Below are positions 2,015 through 20,430 of a stretch of DNA of 24,026 nucleotides, in pieces. The notes below the pieces were generated by a model. The model was not told the origin of the DNA, did no database searches, and worked only from the letters and a program-made list of their open reading frames with translations. Numbering within the stretch: position 1 is the stretch's first letter; each line of letters begins with the position of its first letter. The DNA is from Sphingobacteriales bacterium (GTDB lineage Bacteria > Bacteroidota > Bacteroidia > Chitinophagales > Chitinophagaceae), in NCBI GenBank assembly GCA_004294195.1, contig REAQ01000265.1, forward strand, positions 1-24,026, written 5' to 3'. The position numbers and the translations under genes are program-made.

Positions 2015-2056
2015 GACAATTGTACATTTGTGCAATTGTACAATTGTACAATTGTC
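2015..2056. repeat. 42-bp octamer palindrome between convergent lolA and ubiX
   Basis: The stretch is built of an 8-bp unit, itself palindromic (ACAATTGT), repeated with an 8-bp period (caattgta, caattgta, caattgtc). As a whole it is an imperfect inverted repeat: arms 2015-2035 and 2036-2056 match at 19 of 21 positions. It lies 6 bp after the lolA stop and 5 bp before the ubiX stop, so RNA from either gene would fold into a hairpin. Role as a bidirectional terminator is inferred; there is no clean U-tract. Confidence 0.7.
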
Positions 2057-2061
2057 TCAAT

Positions 2062-2619
2062 TTAATGCCCCCACCGAAATGTGCTAATGTCAAATCCTGC
2101 AAGATCTAATACGCGGTCCACTACTGTAGCAGCCACTTCTTCAACTGTTTGAGGCCTGCTGTAAAATGAAGGCGTTGCCGGGCAAATGATTCCACCTGCC
2201 AGAGTAATGGTTTCCATGTTGCGTAAATGGATCAGGTTGTAGGGGGTTTCCCTCGCAACAAGGATAAGTTTTCTTCGTTCTTTAAGAACTACATCAGCAG
2301 CCCTGGTCAAGAGGTCATTAGAGGCGCCACCAGCGATCCTTCCAAGGGTGCCCATGGAACAGGGGATTACGATCATGGTATCAAACTGACCCGAGCCTGA
2401 GGCAAATGGCGCAGAGAAGTCGTTTTTTGAATAGTAGGTGAAAGGATAGTCATGGTGTAACACATTACCAAGTTCAGTTTCCCAAACGGTAACCGCATTG
2501 TCAGACATCAAAATGCCCACTTCGCTGTACTGCTCCTTCAGCAGCTGAAGTTTGTCTAATAAAAGCTTAAAGTATATCGCCCCACTGGCACCGGTAGCCG
2601 CCACCACTAATTTTCGCAT
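2062..2619 (-). CDS. ubiX: UbiX-family flavin prenyltransferase
   Basis: Makes prenylated FMN from FMN and dimethylallyl phosphate, the cofactor of UbiD-type decarboxylases (quinone or aromatic-acid metabolism). The 185-residue protein has the family length. The N-terminal flavin-binding motif AATGASGAIY sits at residues 7-16. Later come PCSMGTLGRIAGGASNDLLTR, the typical phosphate/FMN loop, and LILVARETPYNLIHLRNM, which in the family binds the prenyl phosphate and closes the site. I chose the ATG at 2619 (MRKLVVAATG); the frame extends 12 codons upstream to 2655 but that tail would overlap the divergent gene and lacks family support. No ubiD is in the window. UbiX could serve menaquinone synthesis, but that cannot be decided here. 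Confidence 0.93.
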   Translation of the reverse strand: MRKLVVAATGASGAIYFKLLLDKLQLLKEQYSEVGILMSDNAVTVWETELGNVLHHDYPFTYYSKNDFSAPFASGSGQFDTMIVIPCSMGTLGRIAGGASNDLLTRAADVVLKERRKLILVARETPYNLIHLRNMETITLAGGIICPATPSFYSRPQTVEEVAATVVDRVLDLAGFDISTFRWGH

Positions 2620-2630
2620 AATTTTGCAAT

Positions 2631-2637
2631 TACCTTG
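2631..2637 (+). promoter_or_regulatory. Possible -7-like box (TACCTTG) of the thioredoxin-like gene
   Basis: TACCTTG lies 17 nt before the ATG at 2655 within the 35-bp divergent gap with ubiX. It is one T short of TAnnTTTG. The same heptamer also precedes pntAA (8661) and the FKBP gene (16183), which is why I list it. Low confidence. Confidence 0.3.
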
Positions 2638-2654
2638 TAAATAAACACAATTCA

Positions 2655-3194
2655 ATGCAAAAAGTTACGGTAGTCATATTGCTTCTTTCCGGACTGGTGT
2701 TCTCCATGAGTTCATGGAAAGGCGATTCCCCTTCAAAAGGGAAAGTGAATTGGATCGGATTGCAAGAAGCCGAAGCCCGAGCCAAAAAGGAAAACAAGCC
2801 GGTGCTCATCGATCTGTATACCGATTGGTGCGGATGGTGCAAAGTCATGGACAAACAGACCTATAGCCATGAAAAAGTGGCTGAATATATCAATTCCCAT
2901 TTTATCCCGGTAAAACTGGATGCTGAGACCAAAAACGCCCTTCAATGGAAAGGAAAGTCTTACGCGTACAATGCCAACTATAAAGTAAATATGTATGCTG
3001 TTTACCTCACGGAAGGACAGCTAAGTTTCCCCACCACCGTCATTATCCCTGCGGATGATACCCGGCCACAAGCTATTCCGGGATTTCTGGAACCGAAAGA
3101 CATAGAATCCCTGTTGAAGTATTTCGGTGAAGGGTATTACGGGAAGGTGCCTTTTCAGGATTATTACAAGAAATTTTCAGGGTCCTGGAAGTGA
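2655..3194 (+). CDS. Secreted thioredoxin-like protein (WCGWC motif)
   Basis: A 179-residue exported thioredoxin-fold protein. Residues 1-20 (MQKVTVVILLLSGLVFSMSS) form a signal peptide or membrane anchor. The thioredoxin domain follows: strand PVLIDLYTDWCGWC with the CxxC pair at C59 and C62, helix with KVMDKQTYSHEKVAEYIN, and FPTTVIIP, where the proline after F is the cis-Pro position. The form CGWC after TDW is typical of the DUF255/thioredoxin_7 branch, which acts in periplasmic thiol-disulfide exchange. The substrate is unknown. The gene is divergent from ubiX (35 bp) and is followed by its own terminator at 3261-3293. I chose the ATG at 2655 because it directly starts the signal peptide. 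Fold and export are clear; the specific role is not. Confidence 0.88.
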   Translation: MQKVTVVILLLSGLVFSMSSWKGDSPSKGKVNWIGLQEAEARAKKENKPVLIDLYTDWCGWCKVMDKQTYSHEKVAEYINSHFIPVKLDAETKNALQWKGKSYAYNANYKVNMYAVYLTEGQLSFPTTVIIPADDTRPQAIPGFLEPKDIESLLKYFGEGYYGKVPFQDYYKKFSGSWK

Positions 3195-3260
3195 TACACA
3201 ATAACAAGTTCTGAACCACCGTTATAGATACGGTTTTTCATAGGATATTGGATTTAAAAC

Positions 3261-3293
3261 GGGGCTGGATTTCTATCCGGGCCTCTTTTTTTT
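3261..3293 (+). terminator. Intrinsic terminator after the thioredoxin-like gene
   Basis: GGGGCTGGA and TCCGGGCCTC form a 9-bp stem with one mismatch and two G-T pairs around a TTTCTA loop, followed at once by a run of eight T. It lies 66 bp after the stop at 3194. It is a good plus-strand Rho-independent terminator. Confidence 0.7.
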
Positions 3294-3386
3294 GTACCTA
3301 CCCCAACTCGCAGCCGAGGTCAGAGGGTAGGGGGCTGACGGCAGAGCTTAATTGCCTGCGATCAGGTTAGAACTTCGCGGAGAGCG

Positions 3387-3420
3387 AATTGCCGCATTAC
3401 CGCATTAACGAATTGTCTAA
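3387..3420. repeat. Octamer tandem repeat (ATTGCCGC/ATTACCGC type)
   Basis: The units attgccgc, attaccgc, attaacga and attgtcta run with an 8-bp period. The first 20 bases (aattgccgcattaccgcatt) recur exactly at 20392-20411 in another convergent junction, and the unit aattgtct also occurs at 2050-2057. The rest of the gap 3294-3386 holds no gene; I see only a weak imperfect hairpin around 3312-3345. Confidence 0.75.
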
Positions 3421-3422
3421 TT

Positions 3423-3494
3423 GACATGGCAAATGCATAAAAGAAAAAAACCAGGCTGAAGCCTGGTTTTTTTCTTTTATGCATTTGCCATGTC
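3423..3494. terminator. Perfect 34-bp inverted repeat with bidirectional terminator core
   Basis: Arms 3423-3456 and 3461-3494 are exact reverse complements (34 of 34) around a TGAA loop. The core is a classic two-way terminator: A-tract, stem CCAGGC/GCCTGG, T-tract. The outer 21 bp of the right arm include the last five codons (D-M-A-N-A) and the stop of the alpha-oxoamine synthase gene, so the left arm is an inverted copy of that gene's 3' end. Such perfection through coding sequence suggests recent palindrome correction or template switching. Confidence 0.9.
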
Positions 3495-4733
3495 TGGTAT
3501 TGCTTCCGTCCGGTAAGCACCCAGGTCAAGCTTTTCTTTTGTTTCTTCGAAAGCCTTGAGCGTCAATGCAATATCTTCGTCTGTATGCACCGCTGTGGGG
3601 ATCAGACGGAAGATGATGTGTCCTTTCGGAATAACAGGATACAAAACAATTGAACAGAAAATATTATAGTTCTCTCTAAGGTCCATCACCATCGTAGTGG
3701 CTTCTTCCACACCACCTTTCATATAAACCGGAGAAACCACAGAGTCTGTTTTACCGATGTCAAATCCCTTTTCCTTCAGGCCATTCTGCAGTTTCCGGGC
3801 ATTTGACCAAAGCTTATCCTTATACTCCGGGTGGTTCCTGAGCAGCTCCAGCCGCTTCAGATTCCCCACTACCAGCGGCATGGGTAAGCTCTTTGCAAAG
3901 ATCTGGCTCCGGATACTGTATCGGATATAGTCAATAATGGCCTTGTCGCCTGCCACAAAAGCACCGATAGAAGCCATGGATTTGGCAAATGTGGAGAAAT
4001 ACAGATCGATCTCATCCTGTACCCCTTGTTCTTCACTCGCTCCTGCTCCCGTTTTTCCAAGGGTGCCGAAGCCATGCGCATCGTCAAGCAGTATACGGAA
4101 TGAATATTTTGACTTAAGGGCCACGACTTCTTTCAGTTTGCCCTGGTCGCCCGCCATGCCAAACACGCCTTCGGTGATCAGCAGGATGCCGCCTGCGCCT
4201 TGTTTCTCAATCAATGCGGTGGCGCGTTGCAGCTGCTTCTCACAATCTTCCACATCATTGTGCTTGAACACATATCGGTGACCCGGATGCAGGCGTACCC
4301 CGTCAATGATACAGGCGTGGCTTTCTGCGTCATAAACGATCACATCGTGCCTTCCCACCAATACATCGATGACACTAACCATACCCTGGTAACCAAAATT
4401 CAAGAGGATGGCATCTTCTTTTGCTTCATAGGCGGCCAGTTCCGCTTCCAGTTGTTCGTGCAGGTCACTGTTTCCGCTCATCATACGGGCGCCCATGGGA
4501 AGGGCAAGTCCATACTTTGCAGCAGCATCTGCATCGGCTTTCCTCACTTCAGGGTGGTTGGCCAACCCCAGATAGTTATTAAGACTCCAAACGATCTTTT
4601 CTTTACCCCTGAACTTCATCCTGTTTCCAATCTCTCCTTCTAGCTTTGGGAAGGAAAAATAACCATGTGCGCGTTTTCTGTGCTGTCCGAGCGGTCCTTG
4701 ATTACGTAGGAGTTTCTCAAAAATATCGGCCAT
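3477..4733 (-). CDS. Alpha-oxoamine synthase family PLP enzyme (KBL/SPT/CFAT-like)
   Basis: A 418-residue fold-type I PLP enzyme of the family that condenses an amino acid with an acyl-CoA, releasing CO2 (2-amino-3-ketobutyrate CoA ligase, serine palmitoyltransferase, 8-amino-7-oxononanoate synthase, cysteate acyltransferase). Visible motifs: NNYLGLANHPEV at 52-63; GARMMSGNSDLHEQLE at 81-96; H139 in ESHACIIDG, the PLP-stacking histidine; DDAHGFGTLG at 217-226; K251 in STFAKSMASIG, the Schiff-base lysine. The N-terminal 45 residues (RAHGYFSFPKLEG) and the C-terminal tail go beyond the core. In this phylum such genes often make sphingolipid or sulfonolipid bases, but the acyl-chain substrate cannot be read from sequence. 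It has its own -7 box (4755-4762) and is divergent from the phosphatase gene. The last five codons and stop lie inside a perfect inverted repeat. Confidence 0.9.
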   Translation of the reverse strand: MADIFEKLLRNQGPLGQHRKRAHGYFSFPKLEGEIGNRMKFRGKEKIVWSLNNYLGLANHPEVRKADADAAAKYGLALPMGARMMSGNSDLHEQLEAELAAYEAKEDAILLNFGYQGMVSVIDVLVGRHDVIVYDAESHACIIDGVRLHPGHRYVFKHNDVEDCEKQLQRATALIEKQGAGGILLITEGVFGMAGDQGKLKEVVALKSKYSFRILLDDAHGFGTLGKTGAGASEEQGVQDEIDLYFSTFAKSMASIGAFVAGDKAIIDYIRYSIRSQIFAKSLPMPLVVGNLKRLELLRNHPEYKDKLWSNARKLQNGLKEKGFDIGKTDSVVSPVYMKGGVEEATTMVMDLRENYNIFCSIVLYPVIPKGHIIFRLIPTAVHTDEDIALTLKAFEETKEKLDLGAYRTEAIPDMANA

Positions 4734-4754
4734 TGTTATCTATTTTTTGGTGTG

Positions 4755-4762
4755 CAAAAATA
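4755..4762 (-). promoter_or_regulatory. -7 box of the alpha-oxoamine synthase gene
   Basis: On the minus strand the bases read TATTTTTG, matching TAnnTTTG, with 21 nt to the ATG at 4733. This spacing equals that of the lolA box. Confidence 0.5.
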
Positions 4763-4788
4763 CAAAAAATAGGTAATAGTGTGAGGGC

Positions 4789-4821
4789 TTAGGGTGAGGT
4801 CTCTTATCACATAAACCCTAA
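4789..4821. repeat. Spaced inverted repeat before the phosphatase gene
   Basis: TTAGGGT (4789-4795) and ACCCTAA (4815-4821) are perfect 7-bp inverted arms 19 bp apart. The right arm overlaps the presumed -7 box at 4819-4826. It could be an operator or chance; there is no independent support. Confidence 0.3.
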
Positions 4822-4826
4822 ATTTG
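4819..4826 (+). promoter_or_regulatory. -7 box directly before the phosphatase start
   Basis: TAAATTTG matches TAnnTTTG and ends only 4 nt before the ATG at 4831. If functional, transcription would begin at or within a few bases of the start codon, giving a leaderless mRNA. Confidence 0.45.
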
Positions 4827-4830
4827 AATT

Positions 4831-6468
4831 ATGAAGAATTTTCTGCTGGTTTACACCCTTTTCTGTGCCTTTTCCGGGCAGGCGCAGGTAAAAACGCCTA
4901 CCAGTGCTCCCGCAAAGCCCAAAATTGTGGTTGGACTGATGGTTGACCAGATGCGTTGGGATTTTTTATATCGATATACTGACCGGTACTCAGAAGGAGG
5001 CTTCAAAAGATTGGTAAGGGAAGGGTTCAACTGTGAGAATACGATGATCCCCTATGCCCAAACCGTTACGGCTTGTGGTCATGCATCGGTCTATACCGGT
5101 TCAGTACCGGCGGTCAACGGGATCATGGGCAATGAGTGGTTCAGCCGCGAGTTGAATAGGCAGGTATATTGTGTGGAAGACCCAACGGTAAAAACGGTTG
5201 GATCGGGCAGGGAATCCCCTCCAATGTCGCCCCGCAATTTGCAGGTCACTACCATGTGCGACGAGCTGCGCATTTCCAATAATTACAAGTCGAAAGTAGT
5301 GGGCATTGCCATCAAAGACAGGGGTGGAATTCTTCCTGCAGGCCATACCGCCAATGCGGCATACTGGTATGATGGGTCAACGGGTAATTGGGTTTCGAGT
5401 ACCCATTACATGCAACAACTGCCGGGCTGGGTTGACGCGTTCAACAATCGCAAAATGCCCGATTCCTTGTATAAATTGAATTGGAATACCCTGTTCCCCA
5501 TCGAAACTTATCTCATGAGTGATCCTGACGACAAGGTGTATGAAGGAAAGTTTGCTTTCGATCCTAAACCGGTGTTTCCGCATAATATCAGTGCAATGGC
5601 CGGCAAAAACTATGGCATCCTTCCCGCAACACCACATGGGAACACGCTGACCCTTGAGTTTGCTAAAGCGGCAATTGTAGCTGAGGGACTTGGGGCCGAT
5701 CAATACACAGATTTTCTGGCCGTGAGTCTTTCTTCACCCGATTACATCGGTCATCAATATGGACCGAACTCCGTTGAAGTGGAGGATACATATCTGCGTC
5801 TGGACAGGGAGCTGGCTGCTTTTTTCAGCTACCTGGATAAGAAGTTTGGTAAGAACGGATATTTGTTTTTCATCACAGCCGATCACGGCGTAGCCAATGC
5901 CCCTGAGTATTCCGTAGAGCATAAACTTCCCGGTGGCCGAAACGGCACCTTGACCACCAAGGCCATGAACAATGTGGCCGTGAAATACAATCTGAAGAGC
6001 CTTGTACGAAATTTTTCCAACTATCAAATCTATCTCGACTATGACGTGATAGACAGTGCGAAACTTGATATCGATGAGGTTAAGGAATCGTTTATCAAGG
6101 AACTGATGAAACAGCCAGGTGTTGCCCTCGCGTTTGATAACGATGAGATCGATGAAGCTCCCTTGCCTGCCAATATTAAGGAACGATTCATCCAGGGCAG
6201 AAATGCGAAACTGGCGGGCGATATCCAGGTGGTGCTTTCCTCAGGATATCTCAATTATGGTACTACCGGAACCTCACATGGCAGTTGGTATCCATACGAT
6301 GCACATATTCCGTTTGTGCTGATGGGATGGGGTATCAAGCCTGGCAGTCTTGGCAGGGAAGTGTATATGTCTGACATCGCACCCACTATTTGTAACCTGC
6401 TGAAGATCCAGATGCCGAGTGGAACAACGGGAACAGTTATTCCTGAAATTACTGACGCTAAGCGCTAA
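4831..6468 (+). CDS. PafA-like alkaline phosphatase, exported
   Basis: A 545-residue exported phosphomonoesterase of the alkaline phosphatase superfamily. It begins with a signal peptide (MKNFLLVYTLFCAFSGQAQ). Metal ligands and active site are in place: D39 in GLMVDQMRWD; the threonine nucleophile in QTVTACGHASVYTG (T80 best fits); N101 in GIMGNEWF; K162 and R164 in IAIKDRGG, the phosphate-contacting pair typical of PafA monoesterases rather than of NPP diesterases; D and H in SSPDYIGHQYGP; TADHGVAN; and H in GTSHGSWYPYDAHIPF. In Bacteroidota such enzymes release phosphate from diverse organic esters in the periplasm, usually without phosphate repression. thyA follows after 58 bp with no clear terminator between. 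The start is fixed by the signal peptide. The exact substrate range is unknown. Confidence 0.93.
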   Translation: MKNFLLVYTLFCAFSGQAQVKTPTSAPAKPKIVVGLMVDQMRWDFLYRYTDRYSEGGFKRLVREGFNCENTMIPYAQTVTACGHASVYTGSVPAVNGIMGNEWFSRELNRQVYCVEDPTVKTVGSGRESPPMSPRNLQVTTMCDELRISNNYKSKVVGIAIKDRGGILPAGHTANAAYWYDGSTGNWVSSTHYMQQLPGWVDAFNNRKMPDSLYKLNWNTLFPIETYLMSDPDDKVYEGKFAFDPKPVFPHNISAMAGKNYGILPATPHGNTLTLEFAKAAIVAEGLGADQYTDFLAVSLSSPDYIGHQYGPNSVEVEDTYLRLDRELAAFFSYLDKKFGKNGYLFFITADHGVANAPEYSVEHKLPGGRNGTLTTKAMNNVAVKYNLKSLVRNFSNYQIYLDYDVIDSAKLDIDEVKESFIKELMKQPGVALAFDNDEIDEAPLPANIKERFIQGRNAKLAGDIQVVLSSGYLNYGTTGTSHGSWYPYDAHIPFVLMGWGIKPGSLGREVYMSDIAPTICNLLKIQMPSGTTGTVIPEITDAKR

Positions 6469-6526: not shown

Positions 6527-7321
6527 ATGAAACAGTACCACGATCTGTTAAAACATATTCTGGATACAGGCGCGCAGAAGCATGACCGCACGGGTACAGG
6601 TACCATCAGTGTGTTTGGCTACCAGATGCGTTTCAATCTGGCCGAGGGTTTTCCGATGGTGACTACTAAGAAAGTGCATTTGAAAAGCATCGTGCATGAA
6701 TTGTTGTGGTTTCTTAAAGGCGAAACCAACATTGCTTACTTGAAAGAAAACGGGGTGAGCATCTGGAATGAGTGGGCTAATGAACAAGGTGAGTTGGGAC
6801 CTGTGTATGGAAAACAATGGCGGAGCTGGGAAGGGAAGGATGGTGCAGTGATTGATCAGATCAAGTGGCTTGTTGATGAGATCAAAAAGAATCCGGACAG
6901 TAGAAGGCTCATCATCAGTGCATGGAACGTTGCGGATCTTCCAAAGATGGCGCTGATGCCTTGTCATACCTTGTTTCAATTCTATGTGGCCGATGGGAAA
7001 CTGAGTTGTCAGTTGTATCAAAGATCTGCGGATGTTTTTCTTGGCGTTCCATTCAACATTGCTTCATATGCATTGCTGACATTGATGGTTGCGCAAGTCT
7101 GTGACCTTCAGCCCGGAGATTTTATTCATAGCTTCGGCGATGTGCATATCTATAACAATCATATTGAGCAGGTGAACCTTCAGTTGAGCAGGGATCCTTA
7201 TCCTTTGCCAACGATGAAAATTAATCCTGAAGTGAAAGATATCTTTGGTTTCCGTTTTGAAGATTTCACACTGGAAAATTATCAATCGCACCCGGCCATC
7301 AAGGCGCCAGTAGCGGTGTAG
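6527..7321 (+). CDS. thyA: Thymidylate synthase
   Basis: Converts dUMP and 5,10-methylene-tetrahydrofolate to dTMP and dihydrofolate in the cytosol. At 264 residues it has the exact length of the short bacterial form. Motifs: [17 protein letters not shown] at 20-36 (phosphate-binding arginine), the tryptophan pair in SIWNEWANE at about 79-85, nucleophile C146 in [14 protein letters not shown], and the dUMP-binding run [20 protein letters not shown] (162-181), then HIYNNHIEQ. folA begins 13 bp after the stop, so its product dihydrofolate is reduced by the neighbour. The ATG start is fixed by the conserved N-terminus [15 protein letters not shown]. Confidence 0.98.
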
Positions 7322-7334: not shown

Positions 7335-7835
7335 ATGATTGTTTCCCATATCGTTGCGGCCGGTGAGCATAACGAAATCGGCAAGCAGAATCAGCTGTTG
7401 TGGCGTTTGCCGAATGACCTTAAGTTTTTCAAAAACACCACATGGGGAATGCCGGTGATCATGGGACGAAAAACCTACGAATCCATAGCTGGTGAACCAC
7501 TGCCCGGCAGGATCAATATTGTTGTGACCCAGAATACAGGTTTCCATCCCAACAATGAAAAAGTGCGTGTGGCCACCTCTATTGAGCAGGCCATTGTGAT
7601 GGCGGGTGAAACGGATTGTAAAGAAGTGTTTATTGCGGGAGGGGGAGAGATCTATAAGCAGAGCCTCCCGCTGACCCACCGTATTTATCTTACACGGGTT
7701 GTGCATAGCTTTCCCGAAGCAGAAATTTTTTACCCGGAGATCAGGGACACGGAATGGAAAAGGATTCATCATCTGGACTTTCCCGCAGATGAGAAACATG
7801 CCTGGGCCTATCGCTTTGAAACTTGGGAAAGATAA
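7335..7835 (+). CDS. folA: Dihydrofolate reductase
   Basis: Reduces dihydrofolate to tetrahydrofolate with NADPH, regenerating the cofactor used up by thymidylate synthase next door. The 166-residue protein has the normal length. The acidic catalytic residue is D28 in WRLPNDLKFFKNTTWG; PVIMGRKTYESI (40-51) carries the NADPH-binding GRKTYES motif; VFIAGGGEIYKQSL is the second nucleotide-binding loop; the C-terminal strands end in HAWAYRFETWER. I chose the ATG at 7335 (MIVSHIVAAGEHNEIG) over a TTG two codons upstream. The next gene starts 1 bp after the stop, indicating one transcript. Confidence 0.97.
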   Translation: MIVSHIVAAGEHNEIGKQNQLLWRLPNDLKFFKNTTWGMPVIMGRKTYESIAGEPLPGRINIVVTQNTGFHPNNEKVRVATSIEQAIVMAGETDCKEVFIAGGGEIYKQSLPLTHRIYLTRVVHSFPEAEIFYPEIRDTEWKRIHHLDFPADEKHAWAYRFETWER

Positions 7836-10127: not shown

Positions 10128-11549
10128 ATGGGCATCAGTTTACTAACCCTGGCATATTTGATTGGTTCTGTCACCTTCATTCTTGGATTGAAGATGCTTT
10201 CCCATCCTGATTCCGCGCGGAAGGGCAACCTTATTGCAGCTGCAGGGATGATCATTGCTATTTTGGGAACGATATTTTTATATGAGAATGAAGGGAAAAA
10301 GCTGGGCAACTATATATGGATCTTCGGTGGCCTGTTGATTGGTACCATCATCGGTACTTTATCTGCAAAGAAAGTGAAGATGACCGCGATGCCTGAGATG
10401 GTGAGCCTGTTCAATGGAATGGGTGGTGCATGTGCGGCGCTGATTTCCATGGTGGAATTTAATCACCTGCAACATCAGCAATTCATGGTGAGTGGAGCGC
10501 CGGTGGGTGGTGGCACTTTATTGGCTATCGTACTCGGCCTCATCATAGGGACCATTTCATTTGCGGGAAGTATGGTGGCCTGGGGTAAACTCAATGGCCG
10601 TATCAAGGATTTCTCGTTTCCTGGTCAACACCTGATCAATATCGGTTTACTGCTGTTGATCCTGTGCATGGCTGGCTATCTGGTTTGGCAGGGTGGTGAA
10701 GTCTCCTCCTTTTATTTCTATCTCATCTTTATACTTAGTGCCGTTTATGGTATTTTCTTTGTGCTGCCCATCGGAGGTGCAGATATGCCTGTGGTGATCT
10801 CCCTGCTGAACTCATTCACTGGCGTTGCTGCCGCAACAGGTGGTTTCCTTTATGACAATCCTGTGATGCTTACGGGCGGTATCCTTGTGGGTGCCGCGGG
10901 CACCTTGCTCACCATTCTGATGTGTAAGGCGATGAACCGCAGTTTGCAAAATGTGCTCATAGGATCCTTTGGCGGCAACAAGGCTGCGGCCAGCGGGGGT
11001 GCTATGGCCAGTGGGGGTACTTATAAAGAAATCACACTTAGCGATGCGGCCATGGTGATGAGCTATGCCAATAAAGTGATCATTGTACCCGGTTACGGTC
11101 TGGCTGTTGCCCAGGCGCAACATACTTGTCACGAGTTGGAGAAATTACTGGAAAACAAAGGCGTGCAGGTCCAGTATGCCATCCATCCGGTAGCAGGAAG
11201 GATGCCTGGTCATATGAACGTGTTGTTGGCTGAGGCCGATGTGAGCTACGATAAATTGCACGAAATGGAAACGGCGAATGAAGAGTTCAAGACCACTGAT
11301 GTGGTGTTGGTGCTTGGCGCCAATGACGTTGTGAATCCTGCCGCTAAATCAGATCCATCGTCCCCAATCTATGGCATGCCCATCCTTGAGGTTGAAGATG
11401 CAAAAGCAGTGATCGTCAATAAGCGCAGTATGAAGCCGGGATATGCGGGCATCGAAAACCAATTGTTTTATCAGCCCAAAACCTCCATGTTGTTCGGTGA
11501 TGCGAAAAAGGCATTGCAAGACCTCATCGCAGAGATCAAGAATATCTAA
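10128..11549 (+). CDS. pntB: NAD(P) transhydrogenase beta subunit
   Basis: A 473-residue subunit with the remaining membrane helices and the NADP-binding domain III. About nine hydrophobic segments fill residues 1-270, including EMVSLFNGMGGACAALIS and VVISLLNSFTGVAAATGGF, whose conserved polar residues line the proton path in the family. Domain III (about 300-473) has VIIVPGYGLAVAQAQH, the variant Rossmann loop for NADP, VAGRMPGHMNVLLAEADV, and VLVLGANDVVNPAAKSDP, ending with NKRSMKPGYAGIENQLFY. All parts are present and the length is normal. The rRNA methylase gene starts 9 bp downstream. Confidence 0.97.
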   Translation: MGISLLTLAYLIGSVTFILGLKMLSHPDSARKGNLIAAAGMIIAILGTIFLYENEGKKLGNYIWIFGGLLIGTIIGTLSAKKVKMTAMPEMVSLFNGMGGACAALISMVEFNHLQHQQFMVSGAPVGGGTLLAIVLGLIIGTISFAGSMVAWGKLNGRIKDFSFPGQHLINIGLLLLILCMAGYLVWQGGEVSSFYFYLIFILSAVYGIFFVLPIGGADMPVVISLLNSFTGVAAATGGFLYDNPVMLTGGILVGAAGTLLTILMCKAMNRSLQNVLIGSFGGNKAAASGGAMASGGTYKEITLSDAAMVMSYANKVIIVPGYGLAVAQAQHTCHELEKLLENKGVQVQYAIHPVAGRMPGHMNVLLAEADVSYDKLHEMETANEEFKTTDVVLVLGANDVVNPAAKSDPSSPIYGMPILEVEDAKAVIVNKRSMKPGYAGIENQLFYQPKTSMLFGDAKKALQDLIAEIKNI

Positions 11550-12929: not shown

Positions 12930-13961
12930 ATGAAGAAGTTTTACACGCTGATTTTGCTTGCCTTTACCGTACTGCAGCTCCAGGCGCAACAATTGATGGT
13001 GCAGCAGGAAGCTGGTAAATTGTATGTGCCACATACGGTTCAACCCAAAGAGAACTGGTATAGCGTGGGCAGGATGTTCAACCTCAGCCCCTCCGTGATT
13101 GCAGGCTTCAATGGACTAAAGATGGACAAAGGCCTGTCTATTGGTCAGAAGATAAAAATACCTCTAAACGATCAAAACCTCGCGCAAGGAGGCCAGCCCG
13201 CAGCTGATGAAGCATTCATCCCGGTTTTTCATACTGTAAAAGAGAAAGAAGGTTTGTACCGGATCGGTCAAACTTTCAACAAAGTATCTGCTGACCAGTT
13301 GAAGGCTTTCAATAAGATGAAGACCGATGATGTAGTGATAGGTTCTAACCTGGTAGTTGGTTATCTGAAGGTGAAAAAAGAGCTTTCACCACTGGCCGGT
13401 GCGGCAGTGTTGCCACCAGCAACAGTAGCTTCCAAACCAGCAACAACAACAGAGGCGCCTAAAGCCACTACATCTCCCGCGGCTACGCCTAAGCCCGTGA
13501 ATCCACCGCCCGTTGTAATCAAAGAACCAGAGAAAAAAGAGCCTGTTGCCAAGCCAGTAGAAGATAAACCTGCACCAGTAACAAAACCTGCAGAAGAGAA
13601 GCCTGTTGTACCGCCGCCCACAATTGTGCGGAACGATGCCCCTTCAACAGAAGGTGCATTTGCTGCGGTATACAAGGACCAATCTAAAGGCGACAATCAA
13701 ACAACCGGCCTCGCGGGAATATTCAAGAGTACCAGTGGCTGGAAAGATGGTAAATACTATGTACTAATGAACAAGGTGTCACCGGGTACCATTGTTAAGA
13801 TCACGTCTGTTTCCACCAACCGGGTGGTATATGCCAAGGTTCTTGGTGAAATCCCTCCGGGAAAGGAGAACGATGGATTGTTGATCCGCATCAGCAATGC
13901 GGCGAGTGCACAGCTGCAGGTTGCAGAGGGTTCTAAGTTTGATGTCTCACTCGTATACTAG
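12930..13961 (+). CDS. Exported protein with two LysM domains
   Basis: A 343-residue exported protein, probably peptidoglycan-bound. Residues 1-20 are a signal peptide (MKKFYTLILLAFTVLQLQAQ). LysM 1 spans about 32-77 (HTVQPKENWYSVGRMFNLS to GQKIKIPL), LysM 2 about 97-148 (HTVKEKEGLYRIGQTFNKV to VVGYLKV). Residues about 165-235 are a Pro/Lys/Ala/Thr-rich linker that likely spans the wall. The C-terminal ~85 residues (GLAGIFKSTSGWKDGKYYVLM to VAEGSKFDVSLVY) form a compact beta-rich domain that resembles the double-psi beta-barrel/RlpA type, but I see no catalytic motif to claim. It starts 15 bp after the rRNA methylase. Its TAG stop is part of the heptamer repeat shared with the convergent fmt gene. 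Confidence 0.87.
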   Translation: MKKFYTLILLAFTVLQLQAQQLMVQQEAGKLYVPHTVQPKENWYSVGRMFNLSPSVIAGFNGLKMDKGLSIGQKIKIPLNDQNLAQGGQPAADEAFIPVFHTVKEKEGLYRIGQTFNKVSADQLKAFNKMKTDDVVIGSNLVVGYLKVKKELSPLAGAAVLPPATVASKPATTTEAPKATTSPAATPKPVNPPPVVIKEPEKKEPVAKPVEDKPAPVTKPAEEKPVVPPPTIVRNDAPSTEGAFAAVYKDQSKGDNQTTGLAGIFKSTSGWKDGKYYVLMNKVSPGTIVKITSVSTNRVVYAKVLGEIPPGKENDGLLIRISNAASAQLQVAEGSKFDVSLVY

Positions 13962-13985
13962 CTACTAGCTATTAGCTAATAGCTA
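13956..13985. repeat. TAnTAGC heptamer array and 20-bp palindrome at the LysM/fmt junction
   Basis: Four 7-bp units (tactagc, tactagc, tattagc, taatagc) run from 13956 to 13983. Within them 13966-13985 is a perfect 20-bp palindrome. The array includes the LysM gene stop (13959-13961) and the fmt stop and the codons for its last residues L-A-I-S, leaving only 10 bp between the two coding regions. It could form a short hairpin in both transcripts. Confidence 0.8.
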
Positions 13986-14847
13986 ATTTGAAGCCGCGCA
14001 TAAAATCATCCACCGCCATTTTTTTCTTACCCTCCATCTGTACGATTGTAGGGTATACGTATCCGTTAGTACAGGCGAAGGCTAGTTTCCCATCGTTCAT
14101 TAATACTGTTCCGGGCGTTTCATTGTGCGCGTTGATCCGATATTGGCAGGCATAGATTTTGAACATTTTTTCCTGAAGTGTTGCGAATGCGGCAGGGTAG
14201 GGAGATAATCCCCTCACCAGGTTGTGGATCTCTTCTGCGCTGGCGATCCAGTTGATCCTGCAGGTATCTGTAAATATTTTGGGCGCGTGTTTGAGTTCAG
14301 TCTCCAGTAAAACAGCTGCGCCGATCTCTTTCATTTTGTCGTGCACTTCACCCGTATTTTCTTCCGGGCCGATGGGTATTTCTTGTTGCAACAAAATATC
14401 TCCGGTATCAATATCGTGTTTGAGTTTGAAGGTGGTGACACCGGTCTCTTTTTCTCCGTTGATCACGGCCCAGTTAATCGGTGCCGCACCACGGTATTTT
14501 GGTAAGAGTGAGCCGTGAAGGTTGATGGTGCCCATGGGCGGCATATTCCACACCAGTTCCGGTAACATGCGGAAAGCAACCACCACCTGGAGGTCTGCAT
14601 GCAGGTTTCGGAGTGCAGCCAGAAATTCAGGATTCTTTAGTTTTTCCGGTTGCAGGATGGCAAGGTTTTGTTGCAGGGCGTATTCTTTTACGGCCGATTG
14701 CTGCAGCTTCATACCCCTACCGGCGGGTTTGTCCGGGGCCGTTATCACGCCAACGATGTTGCAGCCGCCTTCAACGAGTTGTTGCAGGCTGGCGCGGGCA
14801 AATTCCGGAGTACCCATGAAGACGATCCTGAGTTGCGTATAGTCCAT
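13972..14847 (-). CDS. fmt: Methionyl-tRNA formyltransferase
   Basis: Formylates initiator Met-tRNA using 10-formyl-tetrahydrofolate. The N-terminal Rossmann domain begins LRIVFMGTPEFA; the catalytic triad is present as N109 and H111 in TINLHGSLLPKYRGAAPINWA and D147 in KHDIDTGDIL. The C-terminal tRNA-binding domain starts near CRINW (196-200) and includes VRGLSPYPAAF (211-221) and ends with MRGFKLAIS. At 291 residues it is shorter than the usual ~305-315: the linker at 180-190 reads AVLLETELKHAPKIF, where I would expect about 20 more residues between LLET and LKHAPKIF. The frame is intact, so this is an in-frame shortening. The last four codons and the stop are made of the TAnTAGC repeat. 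It lies downstream of namZ on the same strand. Confidence 0.93.
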   Translation of the reverse strand: MDYTQLRIVFMGTPEFARASLQQLVEGGCNIVGVITAPDKPAGRGMKLQQSAVKEYALQQNLAILQPEKLKNPEFLAALRNLHADLQVVVAFRMLPELVWNMPPMGTINLHGSLLPKYRGAAPINWAVINGEKETGVTTFKLKHDIDTGDILLQQEIPIGPEENTGEVHDKMKEIGAAVLLETELKHAPKIFTDTCRINWIASAEEIHNLVRGLSPYPAAFATLQEKMFKIYACQYRINAHNETPGTVLMNDGKLAFACTNGYVYPTIVQMEGKKKMAVDDFMRGFKLAIS

Positions 14848-14861
14848 GTGAAGTAAAAATG

Positions 14862-14894
14862 TAAAAGTAAAAAGTAATAGCCTCTTTACTTTTA
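14862..14894. repeat. AT-rich inverted repeat between namZ and fmt
   Basis: TAAAAGTAAA (14862-14871) and TTTACTTTTA (14885-14894) are perfect 10-bp inverted arms with a 13-nt loop. The left side is part of a short-period GTAAAAA/AAAAGT run (14851-14878). It sits just after the namZ stop and may be a weak terminator or spacer hairpin. It has the same style as the convergent-junction repeats though these two genes are co-directional. Confidence 0.5.
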
Positions 14895-16266: not shown

Positions 16267-16698
16267 ATGCAAGCAAAACAAGGTGACGTAGTAAAGGTAC
16301 ATTACACAGGACGGTTAACGGACGGAACACAGTTCGATTCTTCAGAAGGCAGGGAGCCATTGGAATTTACGGTAGGCGCAGGTCAGATGATCAAAGGATT
16401 TGATGACGGTGTGGTGGGTATGAATGTGGGTGATAAGAAAACGCTCAGTATACCTGCAACAGAAGCGTATGGTGAAAGGGATGAGCAGGCCATTATAGAA
16501 TTTCCTGCTTCCAATATTCCTGCGGACATGAAGCTGGAGCCAGGTATGCAACTGACACTCAGAAATCAGCACGGACAACCGGTTCCCGTTGTTGTTCTTG
16601 AAGTACAAACCGAAGTGATCATCATGGATGCCAATCACATGCTCGCTGGTAAAGAGCTAGTATTTGATGTTGAGCTTGTTGAGATCATTGAGGCATAG
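16267..16698 (+). CDS. SlyD-like FKBP-type peptidyl-prolyl isomerase
   Basis: A 143-residue cytosolic prolyl isomerase/chaperone. The split FKBP domain is visible: VKVHYTGRLTDGTQFDSSEG (9-28), PLEFTVGAGQMIKGFDDGVVGM (31-52), GDKKTLSIPATEAYGERDE (55-73), and at the end ANHMLAGKELVFDVELVEI (122-140). Between 74 and 121 lies the insert-in-flap chaperone domain that marks the SlyD type. There is no signal peptide and no histidine-rich metal tail. I chose ATG 16267 (MQAKQGDVVKVHYTG), preceded by an A-rich stretch; a TTG at 16228 in frame would add 13 unsupported residues. The TAG stop leads directly into the GGGCATT repeat of the next junction. Confidence 0.93.
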   Translation: MQAKQGDVVKVHYTGRLTDGTQFDSSEGREPLEFTVGAGQMIKGFDDGVVGMNVGDKKTLSIPATEAYGERDEQAIIEFPASNIPADMKLEPGMQLTLRNQHGQPVPVVVLEVQTEVIIMDANHMLAGKELVFDVELVEIIEA

Positions 16699-16755
16699 GG
16701 CATTGGGCATTGGGCACTGGTAGGGAATAGGTCAGTGCCCAATGTCAATTGCCTA
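16691..16755. repeat. GGGCATT heptamer hairpin at the FKBP/membrane-protein junction
   Basis: Heptamers agggcat, tgggcat, tgggcac follow the FKBP stop. CATTGGGCACTG (16708-16719) and CAGTGCCCAATG (16733-16744) are perfect 12-bp inverted arms with a 13-nt loop; AGGCA (16691-16695) and TGCCT (16750-16754) can extend the stem, taking in the last FKBP codon and the stop of the minus-strand gene. No strong T-tract is seen, so terminator function is inferred. Confidence 0.75.
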
Positions 16756-17298: not shown

Positions 17299-17305
17299 TT
17301 TACAG

Positions 17306-17313: not shown

Positions 17314-17365
17314 GTGCGTATAAATTAGGCAATTGGTTTAATATATTATAAGATTTTCAGGCATT

Positions 17366-18613
17366 ATGTTCAACAATTATCGATTTTCCGTTGCGGAGAG
17401 ATTGCTGCGATATGTGCAGATTGACACACAAAGTGATCCCTACAGCGAAAGCTTTCCGAGCACCGCGAAACAGCTTGACCTTTCCCGCCTTCTCGTGAAA
17501 GAATTGATGGATATGGGTATTTCCGATGCCGGGTTGGATGAACATGGGTATGTATTTGCGACTATTCCTGGCAACACTGACAAGGATGTGCCGGTGATTT
17601 GTTTTTGTTCTCATATGGATACCGCGCCCGATGTTAGTGGAACTGGGGTTAAGCCCATCGTTCATTCTAACTATGACGGTTCACCCATCATCCTGCCCGA
17701 TGATCCATCGCAGGTGCTGACAATTGAGCTGCATCCTTACTTAAAAGAGAAGATCGGGGACGACATCATTACTGCATCCGGAACAACCCTTCTTGGCGCA
17801 GACGACAAGGCAGGCGTAGCCATCATTATGGATCTCGCGCATTTCCTTCTGACGCATCCTGACATTAAACATGGCCGCATCAGGATCCTGTTTACACCGG
17901 ATGAAGAAGTGGGCCGTGGGGTTGAGAAACTGGATATGGAGAAACTGGGTGCCGATTATGGCTACACCCTGGATGGAAGCGAAGCAGGCTCTTTTGAAGA
18001 CGAGACGTTTTCTGCAGACGGCTGCATCGTGACCTTTGAAGGGGTAAGTGCACACCCGGGCACAGCCAAGGGGAAAATGATCAACGCCGTGAAGCTAGCG
18101 GCGGCCTTCGTTGATGCGTTACCGAAAGGTGCGTTTTCCCCGGAGACCACAGAAGGACGTGAAGGATTTGTACATCCGTTGCACATCAGTGGCTCTGCTG
18201 AACAAGCAAAAGTTGAATTCATTATTCGTGATTTTGAAACGCAGAAATTGAATGATCATGCTGCATTCCTGAAGCAACTGGCACAGGAGATTGCCGATGA
18301 ATATCCTGGAGCAAAAGTTTCTGTAGATGTGAAGCAACAGTATCGCAACATGAAAGAGGTGCTGGATCTTCATCCTAAGGTTGGCGCCTACGCGAAAGAA
18401 GCGATTCATCGGGCCGGATTAACCATCCGTCAGCACCCGGTCCGCGGGGGTACAGACGGATCCCGTTTGTCGTTTATGGGATTGCCTTGTCCAAATATAT
18501 TCACCGGTGAAATGGCATTGCATTCGAGACATGAATTTGTGAGTGTTCAAGACATGCAGAAATCAGTGGAAACGCTTGTGCATTTGGTGCAGATTTGGGA
18601 AGAAAATGCTTAG
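17366..18613 (+). CDS. pepT: Peptidase T (tripeptide aminopeptidase)
   Basis: A 415-residue M20-family zinc aminopeptidase that removes N-terminal residues from tripeptides in the cytosol. Metal and catalytic residues: H83 and D85 in CFCSHMDTAPD; D146 in LLGADDKAGVAI (bridging); E180 (catalytic) and E181 in FTPDEEVGRGVE; D203 in YTLDGSEAGSF; the last zinc histidine in ALHSRHEFVSV near the C-terminus. The inserted lid domain (about 215-325) includes SAHPGTAKGKMINAVKLAAAF and RDFETQKLNDH, typical of PepT rather than other M20 enzymes. The N-terminus ERLLRYVQIDTQSDP is conserved. The stop codon TAG is part of the AGGTTGA repeat that follows. Confidence 0.97.
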   Translation: MFNNYRFSVAERLLRYVQIDTQSDPYSESFPSTAKQLDLSRLLVKELMDMGISDAGLDEHGYVFATIPGNTDKDVPVICFCSHMDTAPDVSGTGVKPIVHSNYDGSPIILPDDPSQVLTIELHPYLKEKIGDDIITASGTTLLGADDKAGVAIIMDLAHFLLTHPDIKHGRIRILFTPDEEVGRGVEKLDMEKLGADYGYTLDGSEAGSFEDETFSADGCIVTFEGVSAHPGTAKGKMINAVKLAAAFVDALPKGAFSPETTEGREGFVHPLHISGSAEQAKVEFIIRDFETQKLNDHAAFLKQLAQEIADEYPGAKVSVDVKQQYRNMKEVLDLHPKVGAYAKEAIHRAGLTIRQHPVRGGTDGSRLSFMGLPCPNIFTGEMALHSRHEFVSVQDMQKSVETLVHLVQIWEENA

Positions 18614-18667
18614 GTTGAAGGTTGAAGCGTTGCCGCTCTTCAACCTCCAACCTTCAACCTCCAACCT
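18612..18667. repeat. AGGTTGA/CCAACCT heptamer hairpin after pepT
   Basis: Two units of aggttga (18612-18625) face inverted copies (cttcaacct, ccaacct, cttcaacct, ccaacct; 18638-18667). Arms 18612-18627 and 18638-18653 pair over 16 bp with one mismatch around the loop cgttgccgct. The left arm begins inside the pepT stop codon and the right side ends 6 bp before the convergent gene's stop. Confidence 0.78.
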
Positions 18668-18672
18668 GTAAC

Positions 18673-19038
18673 TCAAGTAGCGCTCATTTCTAAATGATCT
18701 ATTGGCTCTTTCCAGATCCGCATATACCAGTATACAGGGAATGCCAGCACATTGCCTAAAAGGAAGAGGATGATCCAAAGTAACTTCTCCTCTGTGTTGA
18801 CATTGCTGTTGACCACTAGTATAATGTAATAGACCAACAGGCCGAAGGATACAATACCCATTGCAAGCATCAGCACAAACAGCCAGAACATGCTGGAGAA
18901 AAGGGGCATAGGTTGGTTTTCATTGCCGTACAGGATCACGTCTTTAACCAGTAACCCAAAGGCTACCATGTATGCGATGACAAGGGCGATGGGCAAAAAG
19001 GTAAAGATGCCCAGCCAGATTTTGCTTCCTTTTGCCAT
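18673..19038 (-). CDS. Small membrane protein, PLDc_N-like tail, unknown function
   Basis: A 121-residue protein with three or four hydrophobic segments: IWLGIFTFLPIALVIAYMVAF (7-27), MFWLFVLMLAMGIVSFGLLVYYIILVV (50-76) and LLWIILFLLGNVLAFPVYWYM (86-106). The motif EEKLLWIILFLLGNVLAFPVYWYMRI resembles the short PLDc_N-type membrane module seen in many small Bacteroidota proteins, but I claim no enzyme activity. It is convergent with pepT and divergent from exbB, with its ATG only 65 bp from the exbB start. It is a plausible real gene of unknown role. Confidence 0.7.
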   Translation of the reverse strand: MAKGSKIWLGIFTFLPIALVIAYMVAFGLLVKDVILYGNENQPMPLFSSMFWLFVLMLAMGIVSFGLLVYYIILVVNSNVNTEEKLLWIILFLLGNVLAFPVYWYMRIWKEPIDHLEMSAT

Positions 19039-19103
19039 AAGCCGTGATTTTCATTAAGATAAACAATTCTGCTGATGAACTAACCCCGAGGGCTACCTTT
19101 TTT

Positions 19104-19859
19104 ATGAAGCGGTTAACTATTGTGTGCTTACATTTGCTCAAACTGTTTTTCATGCCTGGTTGGTTGTTGCAATCCACTCCTTTGACATCTTCCGCAGACA
19201 CTTTGCAGTCGGGCACCCAAGCCATCGCTGCCTCTCCTAAGGAAATGCATCTTTGGGATATCCTGGTATCAGGCGGACCGATCATGATACCTTTGGCCCT
19301 GCTTCTGGTGGCTGCTATTTTCTTTATGGTGGAACGATGGATCGCGATCAAGCGGGCATCAAAAATTGATGAAAATTTCATGGGGATCATCCGTGATCAT
19401 ATCATGAATGGAAATATTGCTGCAGCAAAATCACAGGCAAAGAATACCAATAGTCCCATTGCGCGGATGATCTACAAAGGTATTCAACGCATCGGTAAAC
19501 CCATCGATGCTATCGAACGGAGCATGGAGTCTGTGGCCCAGCTTGAAATGTATGCGTTGGAACGCAACCTGAACGTGCTTTCTGTGATCTCCCGCGCCGC
19601 ACCAATCTTTGGTTTTATTGGTACACTCGCTGGTCTAATGCAGCTTTTCTTCAATATCAACGCTACGGGTGAATTTGTGCTTAATACCATTGCAGGTGGT
19701 TTGTATGTAAAGATTGTTACTTCATTGACCGGTTTGCTGATTGGCCTCGTGGCCTACCTTGGGTATAGCTACCTTATGGCGCAGACGGATAAAGCGGCCA
19801 ACCGGATGGAAGTGGCCGCAGCAGATTTCCTGGACGTATTGCAGGAACCAACTCATTAA
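19104..19859 (+). CDS. exbB: ExbB/TolQ-family proton channel subunit
   Basis: A 251-residue inner-membrane protein that with ExbD uses the proton gradient to energise TonB-type or Tol-type transport across the envelope. The MotA/TolQ/ExbB domain is clear: first helix GPIMIPLALLLVAAIFFMVERWIAIKRA (about 58-85), cytoplasmic region with NSPIARMIYKGI, then APIFGFIGTLAGLMQLFF and AGGLYVKIVTSLTGLLIGLVAYLGYSYL, the two pore-lining helices with the conserved small and Thr residues. The N-terminal ~45 residues contain an extra hydrophobic segment (LTIVCLHLLKLFFMPGWLL), common in Bacteroidota homologues. I chose ATG 19104; a GTG at 19044 in frame would add 20 residues that overlap the gap with the divergent gene. 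exbD starts 3 bp after the stop. Confidence 0.93.
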   Translation: MKRLTIVCLHLLKLFFMPGWLLQSTPLTSSADTLQSGTQAIAASPKEMHLWDILVSGGPIMIPLALLLVAAIFFMVERWIAIKRASKIDENFMGIIRDHIMNGNIAAAKSQAKNTNSPIARMIYKGIQRIGKPIDAIERSMESVAQLEMYALERNLNVLSVISRAAPIFGFIGTLAGLMQLFFNINATGEFVLNTIAGGLYVKIVTSLTGLLIGLVAYLGYSYLMAQTDKAANRMEVAAADFLDVLQEPTH

Positions 19860-19862
19860 CAC

Positions 19863-20261
19863 ATGCAGATCCGAAAAAAGCATAGGGGAGAAGCCGAAGT
19901 ATTTACGGATGCATTGAATGACATCCTGTTCATCCTACTTATGTTCTTCCTCATTGTATCTACCCTTGCCAATCCCAATGTAATCAAGCTATCGCAACCC
20001 AAGTCGAAGAGCGATACCAAGGCAAAACAAAATGTGGTAGTATCCATTGATGCCAACCTGATGTACTACGTAGGTACTAATAAAGTAGGTATTGACTCGC
20101 TGCGTGCCGCGTTGTTACCCGCTATTCAGAAGGAGAAGACAGATATACCCACCGTGGTGATCAATGCGGATAAGAATGTACCTATTGACAATGTGGTTGC
20201 GGTGATGCGGGTGGCGAGGGAATTGGGTGCGAGAACGGTGCTATCTGTTGAGAAGAATTAG
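19863..20261 (+). CDS. exbD: ExbD/TolR-family biopolymer transport protein
   Basis: A 132-residue partner of ExbB. The short cytoplasmic N-terminus leads into one helix (LNDILFILLMFFLIVSTLAN, about 18-37) with D20, the conserved membrane aspartate that carries protons in the family. The periplasmic domain (about 45-132) has VVVSIDANLMYYVGTNKV, VVINADKNVPIDNVVAVMRVARELGA and the final LSVEKN, the usual ExbD/TolR fold. It starts 3 bp after exbB, so the two are one operon; no tonB or outer-membrane receptor gene is nearby, so which system it powers is unknown. A 160-bp composite repeat lies directly downstream. Confidence 0.95.
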   Translation: MQIRKKHRGEAEVFTDALNDILFILLMFFLIVSTLANPNVIKLSQPKSKSDTKAKQNVVVSIDANLMYYVGTNKVGIDSLRAALLPAIQKEKTDIPTVVINADKNVPIDNVVAVMRVARELGARTVLSVEKN

Positions 20262-20267
20262 ACATGG

Positions 20268-20430
20268 TTAATGCGGCAATGCGGAAATGCGGTAATGCGA
20301 CAATGAAGGAAGCGCGGCCGTGCGTTGCCGGCGTGCGCAGAACCACCCGGAGTGACTGCCGGCGCGCCGCAACGCAGGGCGCGCCTTCCTAAATTGCCGC
20401 ATTACCGCATTGTCAAATTACCGCATTAAT
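20268..20430. repeat. ~160-bp composite palindrome: octamer arms plus GC-rich core (exbD/prmC junction)
   Basis: The left arm (20268-20305) is an 8-bp tandem array: aatgcggc, aatgcgga, aatgcggt, aatgcgac. The right arm (20391-20430) is the inverted counterpart (attgccgc, attaccgc, attgtcaa, attaccgc); about 31 of 38 positions pair. Inside lies a very GC-rich inner inverted repeat (20306-20390) with AGGAAG/CTTCCT ends and a TGCGTTGC/GCAACGCA core; its center (about 20340-20353) is unpaired. The last codons of prmC (L-M-R-stop) are part of the right arm. The block 20392-20411 is identical to 3387-3406. It contains no plausible ORF. It may be a terminator or a REP/MITE-like element. Confidence 0.8.

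Follow-up and report, generated by a model that had tools for sequence, protein, structure and literature searches.

Where do short tandem repeats settle in a bacterial genome, and what form do they take there? The closest precedent for the arrays described below appears to be the inverted heptamer arrays of Xanthomonas, whose GGGAATC repeats, together with GGGGA(C/T)T in Nostoc, are G-rich heptamers (Rehm et al. 2015, PMC4692102; this and the other publications cited are drawn on in part). The Xanthomonas arrays are mostly intergenic, lie near or over stop codons and include 70 and 75 inverted pairs in two genomes; 16% lie between convergent and 7-8% between divergent genes, and repeat length and sequence vary between the two species (PMC4692102). 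The same source, in the parts used here, quotes polymerase slippage as an idea for the heptamer period and leaves function open. Here we analyze a 24,026-nucleotide stretch (the window), contig C13 of the draft genome of a Sphingobacteriales bacterium (1,956,249 bases, 398 contigs, 75% complete), in which gaps between convergent genes carry tandem arrays of period 7 or 8, clearly combined with inverted repeats at five of six junctions. Across a larger part of the genome such arrays are concentrated in convergent gaps, without filling all of them.

Like the Xanthomonas and Nostoc heptamers, the present arrays include a period of 7, are intergenic and situated at stop codons, are few at divergent gaps, and have their G-rich strand reading inward from the gene; their inverted pairing is as in Xanthomonas. 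They go beyond these systems in that period 8 makes up 19 arrays of this genome against 22 of period 7. Where Xanthomonas and Nostoc have one motif type per genome in the material cited, we distinguish about eleven families of words, with periods of 7, 8 or 13-14, and several words lack a G-tract, unlike the quadruplex-capable motif (PMC4692102). The present arrays depart from this known ground in a vocabulary of many words that changes between congeners, in families of period 8, in the conserved core of one family (F1), and in a palindrome that contains an inverted copy of a coding end. For the terms used, we found no publication in the open-licence literature on palindromic 7- or 8-mer arrays in Chitinophagaceae.

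Other described systems share single features. Repetitive extragenic palindromic (REP) sequences and the BIME and REPIN families are likewise dispersed, species-specific, extragenic, palindromic and frequent between convergent genes, but the parts of the sources used describe no tandem 7- or 8-mer arrays (PMC1525189, PMC12306157); and, unlike REP and REPIN sequences, the arrays are not tracked by a transposase of the REP-associated (RAYT, Y1) type. The TAACTGA heptamer repeats of Beggiatoaceae, Cyanobacteria and five Bacteroidetes are intergenic tandem heptamers too, but consist of one motif, lie, in the main genome described, mostly just upstream of start codons, and are direct rather than inverted (169 direct sets, 1 indirect; PMC4679880, as far as the source was drawn on). 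In quasipalindrome mutation, inverted repeats grow more alike by template switching; the sources used treat mutations or gene evolution (PMC7202029, PMC8604942), whereas here a genome-wide, accumulated result would be at issue.

Terminators made from DNA uptake signals reportedly use one word, without tandem arrays. What they share with the present arrays is a hairpin that arises from closely spaced, complementary copies of a word found genome-wide (Kingsford et al. 2007, cited in PMC2267715).

Arrays at convergent gene junctions

Gene calls, made with a hexamer-based caller written for the purpose, return convergent gaps at 2009-2061, 3195-3476, 13962-13971, 16699-16752, 18614-18672 and 20262-20417, exactly where an earlier note on this DNA had placed six convergent junctions. 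That note had seen at each of them an array of 7- or 8-bp units that is also an inverted repeat. This is clear at five, but at 3195-3476 the array is weak and one-armed and the palindrome there is separate. The features, with arrays from Tandem Repeats Finder (TRF), are as follows.

2016..2055, junction 1: five copies of ACAATTGT, period 8, with a self-palindromic unit; hairpin (TRF, fold)
3388..3410, junction 2: one-armed array ATTGCCGC ATTACCGC ATTAACG of family F1, the same word as AATGCGGY (TRF and pattern match)
3423..3494, junction 2: palindrome with a perfect 35-bp stem and a 2-nt loop, unrelated to the array beside it
13956..13987, junction 3: TAGCTAN array, period 7, overlapping both stop codons of a gap of merely 10 bp (TRF, gene calls)
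16686..16720, junction 4, left arm: GGCATTG array, period 7 (TRF)
16733..16744, junction 4, right arm: single inverse copy CAGTGCCCAATG (fold)
18612..18632, junction 5, left arm: GGTTGAA array, period 7 (TRF)
18638..18667, junction 5, right arm: CTTCAACCTCCAAC array, period 7/14, inverse of the left arm (TRF over 18641-18667 at period 7; fold)
20270..20305, junction 6, left arm: AATGCGGY array, period 8, F1 element (TRF)
20308..20389, junction 6, core: F1 core, an 82-nt G+C-rich quasi-palindrome common to a dispersed family
20393..20428, junction 6, right arm: ATTRCCGC array, period 8, inverse of the left arm (TRF)
14851..14877, between co-directional genes: weak case of AAGTAAAAAGTAA, remarked on in the earlier note (TRF); our array finder does not report it, so it is outside the gap counts

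Over both strands of the six junctions, hairpin z-scores (fold energy against shuffled sequence) run from -2.2 to -7.7, the weakest being junction 3, folded over 13940-13990; TRF itself spans 13956-13985 there. The hairpin of junction 1 lies between the stop codons of genes 1346-2008 (+) and 2062-2619 (-) and folds on the + strand with a dG of -25.0 and a z of -7.7. Junctions 4 (dG -27.9, z -5.7) and 5 (dG -20.5, z -4.9) are hairpins with arms of unequal length, and the element of junction 6, an 8-mer arm, the core and the inverse arm, measures about 160 bp in total. At junction 2, TRF finds a weak array of period 8 with 2.5 copies and a score of 33 over 3388-3407.

Does this architecture extend beyond the window? 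The earlier note had proposed a genome-wide comparison of gap types, which we carried out on the window plus 100 further contigs of the same draft, 565,936 bases or 29% of the genome. Contigs were chosen by number, from ranges partly picked since word matches had revealed long contigs there; the sample holds 413 gaps, of which one longer than 1200 bp was excluded, and an array was counted at period 6-10 and a score of at least 11. Arrays are present in 20 of 64 convergent, 23 of 279 co-directional and 4 of 69 divergent gaps (Fisher p=6e-6 and 2e-4). With the window removed the figures are 15/58, 23/265 and 4/63 (p=0.001 and 0.005), the difference between co-directional and divergent gaps not being significant (p=0.80). 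The convergent bias of a recurring architecture thus holds in both sets. In contrast, the claim that every convergent junction is filled describes a lucky window: inside it 5/6 convergent, 0/14 co-directional and 0/6 divergent gaps carry an array, but most convergent gaps outside it lack one. Similarly, the near-absence of arrays from other gap types stands within the window and not beyond it. The observation is real, but it is not universal.

Gaps of at least 30 bp, window included, have arrays in 18/42 convergent, 21/152 co-directional and 4/62 divergent cases, and stems of at least 15 in gaps of at least 10 bp number 22/50, 19/201 and 5/63, respectively. Outside the window convergent gaps are bimodal, an array or a stem of at least 12 being found in 29/37 gaps of at least 30 bp and in 1/21 shorter ones. 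Dinucleotide-shuffled gaps yield about no arrays. When all periods from 4 to 20 are admitted, the intergenic arrays of the sample have, beside the 22 of period 7 and 19 of period 8, periods of 13 (9), 14 (10) and 16 (4), and no others, against about 0.3 arrays in all in shuffled gaps. In co-directional gaps, the median distance of an array is 5 bp to the stop codon upstream and 24 bp to the start codon downstream, and 18 of 24 arrays are nearer the stop.

The arrays and stems also have a polarity. In stems without a U-tract, 5' arms richer in G than in C prevail by 15:3 in both convergent and co-directional gaps (ties omitted), by 16:2 in the nearest relative introduced below, and by 11:5 (convergent) and 18:4 (co-directional) in 80 loci from other species. 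When arrays are read from the nearest gene boundary inward, 32 have more G than C, 16 more C than G, and 4 are tied; the corresponding numbers are 17, 7 and 1 in the nearest relative, 10, 2 and 0 in four other congeners and 32, 8 and 7 in 79 loci, copies of one family not being independent in these counts.

Rfam at gathering scores gives no match anywhere in the window. The non-coding stretch 3225-3298, which closes with a hairpin and a T-run (GGATATTGGATTTAAAACGGGGCTGGATTTCTATCCGGGCC), is by eye closely matched near the same gene in three relatives (L057, L061, L062), again with no Rfam match, and is possibly a small RNA.

The same junctions in related genomes

The nearest relative is "Sphingobacteriales bacterium isolate Ww31" (locus L051; taken here to be congener genome G015, which carries the same matches; sample 134 kb), whose PNTB-family protein is 82% identical to the window protein at 10128-11549. 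When 100 relative loci were searched for both genes of each junction, with distances measured between match ends and not stop codons, all four relatives with both genes of junction 1 had 8-14 nt between matches and no array. Both genes of junction 3 occur in 35 loci, 20 of which were inspected. Among these, the distance does not exceed 30 nt in 13, Ww31 holds a hairpin array of 89 nt built from a GACTCTCT word (an 8-mer), and L102 shows a 29-bp perfect stem; the other 15 comprise two repeats of the Ww31 locus, one locus with a different orientation and 12 whose matches are over 600 nt apart. At junction 4, 12 of 13 loci were inspected, several having ordinary terminators by eye and Ww31 a hairpin array of a different word. 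Likewise, 10 of 12 loci inspected at junction 6 have 11-49 nt between matches and no array by eye. None of the 100 loci has both genes of junction 2 or of junction 5. The orthologous junctions are thus mostly short and empty, or hold ordinary terminators.

Comparison of our contigs with the Ww31 sample gave 17 orthologous pairs of adjacent genes. Two of three convergent pairs are filled in both genomes, one of these two on our side by nothing more than an ordinary terminator. Of 13 co-directional pairs, 5 are filled in Ww31 alone, and at one of the five (L010) an array of our genome is visible that the cut-off missed. The five include thymidylate synthase and dihydrofolate reductase, which are separated by an array hairpin in Ww31 and by 13 bp in the window (6527-7321 and 7335-7835). 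Elsewhere in the Ww31 genome, at L229 4850-4997, a U-tract terminator that seemingly has a second inverted copy of its own arm adjoins mixed 8- and 9-mer arrays.

Four further congeners (G016, G007, G025, G020; 400 kb) show the convergent bias weakly and with other words: pooled, arrays are found in 5/57 convergent against 5/236 co-directional gaps (p=0.027) and in 0/55 divergent gaps, and G007 has none in the 120 kb examined. The set of 80 loci, made up of the Ww31 locus and 79 titled Chitinophagaceae, Sphingobacteriaceae and relatives (1.37 Mb), has mainly periods 7 (31) and 14 (27) and few others, so the 7-nt habit is wider than this genus. Period-7 arrays are present in the isolate genomes of Sediminibacterium goheungense and Terrimonas ginsenosidimutans (L053, L129); at L129 7276-7634 the latter carries a long run of a CGGTCAA heptamer.

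Repeat words, the F1 family and an inverted coding end

The earlier note took the six units to be different and concluded that no single mobile repeat had been copied around. Several words are indeed distinct, but ATTRCCGC is the reverse complement of a rotated AATGCGGY, so that two of the six units form one family. Three words were searched for across the whole genome and two of them in 59 other genomes, including 36 congeners; the match counts include overlaps, and the near-palindromic TAGC word is mostly counted on both strands of one place. Two units of ATTRCCGC have 48 matches (0 with the pattern read backwards), the TAGC word TAGCTATTAGCTAATAGC has 134 and GGCATTGGGCATTG has 68 (control 1), the last two at no more than one mismatch. 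The doubled ATTRCCGC is absent from the 59 other genomes, and the TAGC word is found in none of the 36 congeners and in only one of the 59, outside the genus. By eye, the congener arrays use other words, namely CAGGTTG, AAAGTAA and AGAGAGTC in Ww31 and GTTGTAG in G016; GGTTG-type repeats are common to our genome and Ww31. The roughly eleven families, grouped by eye and including TAGCTAN, CAATTGR and AACTCAGY as words without a G-tract, are unrelated to one another, vary from copy to copy within imperfect arrays, and are mixed in 13 gaps. Any of the 11 is present in 32/64 convergent, 57/279 co-directional and 13/69 divergent gaps, compared with 13 family hits inside 406 kb of genes.

The F1 family is MITE-like (resembling miniature inverted-repeat transposable elements) in its many copies, conserved core and inverted ends. 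A 93-base query of its core has 15 matches in the genome, among them the junction at 20262-20417, and 0 in the 59 others; in view of these matches and the dispersal of the searched words, the denial of a copied mobile repeat was too strong. Eight cores of equal length have a mean identity of 92.5%, the arms differ more (about 79%), and the arms are inverted in all 10 long copies inspected. Co-evolution of the arms within F1 was considered and rejected, arm likeness being 0.78 within and 0.80 between elements. At three sites (L132 7604-7787, L148 235-472, L158 5871-6146) a similar chimera is seen, in which the F1 core is part-replaced by a GGCATTG-type stretch followed by CTCGCGAAGCGTC.

The palindrome at 3423-3494 bears most directly on how an inverted repeat is made. 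The final 18 nt of the coding sequence 3477-4733, with its stop codon, form part of the right arm, and the left arm is the inverted copy; the arms contain A- and T-runs as in a two-way terminator, with a U-tract recognizable by eye. Four homologues of this gene, 82-85% identical, end in ..MAEA, ..MAEI or ..MAEV against our ..MANA, and after the stop three of them (L057, L061, L062) have a short ordinary terminator and the fourth (L114) has none. No inverted copy of the coding end was seen in the 120 nt inspected for each, which argues that the coding arm came first and that the far arm arose later as its inverted copy. The duplication plus inversion that the earlier note had envisaged therefore has direct evidence once in the window, but none at its other junctions: an inverted copy of the flank that relatives lack, as expected of template switching, was found at 3423-3494 only.

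Perfect stems of at least 14 bp with a loop of at most 30 amount to 24 entries in our 566 kb, none inside genes, to 12 in 134 kb of Ww31, and to one in 400 kb of the four congeners, inside a gene. Six of our entries, including two that are nested within a single site, reach across a stop codon by at least 5 nt, for example a 28-bp stem including 25 nt of coding sequence (L023 1960-2018) and a 27-bp stem including 15 nt (L038 9991-10047). Stems entering coding sequence are also seen in a few loci of other species, such as L102 6123-6170.

Origin of the arrays

We propose that the arrays are fast-turnover spacer repeats private to the lineage, with a period of 7 or 8 and in many cases folded into hairpins, which grew by slippage and by template switching on fold-back and are tolerated best after stop codons, a reading to which we assign a probability of roughly 0.57. 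The starting point is the state of the relatives, in which most of the corresponding convergent gaps are short or contain the hairpin of an ordinary terminator. First, replication slippage would produce direct duplications of 7 or 8 nt, and a nascent strand folding back on a hairpin would copy its flank, so making or lengthening an inverted copy. Second, the end of a coding sequence can be drawn into that copy, as outgroups show for 3423-3494 and as may hold for two further palindromes of this genome. Third, existing arrays would seed new ones by ectopic copying, F1 with its conserved core acting like a small mobile element, and the genome would thereby gain its small vocabulary of words. Finally, selection would be weakest where an array damages no promoter and no 5' leader, and convergent gaps would accordingly fill first and other 3' ends after them. 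Any terminator or mRNA-end effect would be a by-product, which may be kept where useful. Loss of SbcCD was considered as a permissive change and rejected, because the array-rich closest relative has an SbcD match over the cut-off; our own draft has a weak one.

The sharp periods, the position of co-directional arrays near the upstream stop, the convergent bias with and without the window, the private words, their turnover between relatives at junctions 1, 3 and 4, the inverted coding end, the two further stems at L023 and L038, the filled thymidylate synthase gap of Ww31 and the published heptamer parallel speak for this proposal. Several observations weigh against it. There is no convergent excess in Ww31 (2/11 convergent, 17/73 co-directional and 1/10 divergent gaps), and no convergent enrichment in the 80 loci (4/177, 31/904 and 7/170); since these loci all surround one gene and repeat the same few junctions, we do not treat the comparison as a fair one, though it does speak against a universal convergent rule. 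Perfect stems are not private to the clade, the 80 loci having 41 entries, many of them ordinary terminators. An inverted copy is backed by an outgroup in one case, L023 and L038 having none. Within an F1 element the two arms resemble each other no more than arms of different elements do (permutation p=0.88, 8 elements), and fold-back correction is thus not seen in this family. Arm identity across 25 palindromes is 0.87 in register against 0.74 when shifted by one unit, a comparison biased by choosing the best register, and ectopic seeding is read from the shared words and the 13 mixed-word gaps rather than observed. Last, convergent gaps of 30-260 bp (n=40) have a median hairpin z of -5.3, with 70% below -3, against medians of -0.55 and -0.14 elsewhere, a strength that tolerance alone need not require.

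The strength of these hairpins is what would be expected if the arrays were instead selected as two-way terminators or stabilizers of mRNA 3' ends, mostly without a U-tract; convergent gaps need terminators most and would for that reason be filled. A terminator or barrier role, as the earlier note suggested, is possible on the sequence evidence, but as the explanation of the arrays we regard it as unlikely. The bimodal filling of convergent gaps (29/37 of the longer ones outside the window) fits such selection, as do arms that lie close to the stops and the presence of a U-tract terminator, by our own criterion, in only 10 of 50 convergent gaps of at least 10 bp; and in Xanthomonas axonopodis transcripts start or stop more often at quadruplex-capable heptamer repeats than at controls (PMC4692102, in the part used). 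A stem of at least 12 is found in 12/20 convergent against 7/23 co-directional array gaps, which slightly favours selection; conversely, the stem is shorter than 12 in 16/23 co-directional array gaps (8/20 convergent). A stable hairpin does lie between the convergent stops, but the U-tract at the stem end that marks an intrinsic terminator is missing, by the same criterion, from 28 of the 34 filled convergent gaps. Nor do arrays avoid gaps that already have a U-tract terminator: the anticorrelation that we looked for was not seen (6/34 filled gaps against 4/16). Moreover, relatives commonly have no hairpin at the orthologous convergent gap, which then measures 30 nt or less, and Ww31 carries such hairpins inside tight co-directional runs. 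Because of the scarce U-tracts, the lack of terminator avoidance, the co-directional array gaps without a stem of 12, the array-free relatives and the tolerance seen in Ww31, we rank mutational growth with tolerance first and selection for termination second.

Could the arrays be ends or remnants of small non-autonomous mobile elements of a REP/REPIN- or MITE-like kind, spread by a transposase? The 82-nt core of F1 in dispersed copies, the dispersal of the searched words and the frequency of REP sequences between convergent genes (PMC1525189, in the part used) are consistent with this, but the eleven or so unrelated words are not, and we consider it improbable. The sole Y1 transposase match of our genome is partial, IS200-like and at a contig end (L166 8010-8243), with no array in the 1.3 kb read; the search covered the Y1 family only, in a genome that is 75% complete. 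G016 (95% complete) has arrays and no Y1 match, whereas G007 has a Y1 match and no arrays in 120 kb. RAYT was rejected as the driver, since the presence of Y1_Tnp does not track arrays in the genomes compared.

Perfect palindromes with tiny loops can be products of assembly or amplification. That metagenome assembly or a lucky window accounts for part of the pattern, as the higher window rate (5/6 against 15/58 in the rest of the sample) and the fragmented, incomplete draft might suggest, is nevertheless very improbable given period-7 arrays in two isolates and arrays that are imperfect and differ from copy to copy.

Growth by slippage and fold-back copying may be put in a stronger form, which we advance tentatively and ourselves find doubtful. 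Gene ends would be an active hairpin workshop, in which fold-back copying and 7- or 8-nt slippage build palindromes outward, even into coding sequence, and in which species-own words overwrite each other at the same junctions as the architecture stays.

If the growth model is true, slippage and template switching by fold-back leave a natural record in the convergent gaps of bacteria, and the clean period of 7 or 8 bears on how DNA polymerase slips. Hairpins after genes could then be mutational by-products and not evolved terminators, which matters for terminator prediction in Bacteroidota. With several words at many comparable junctions in one genus, both the slippage and the by-product points can be tested by comparison.

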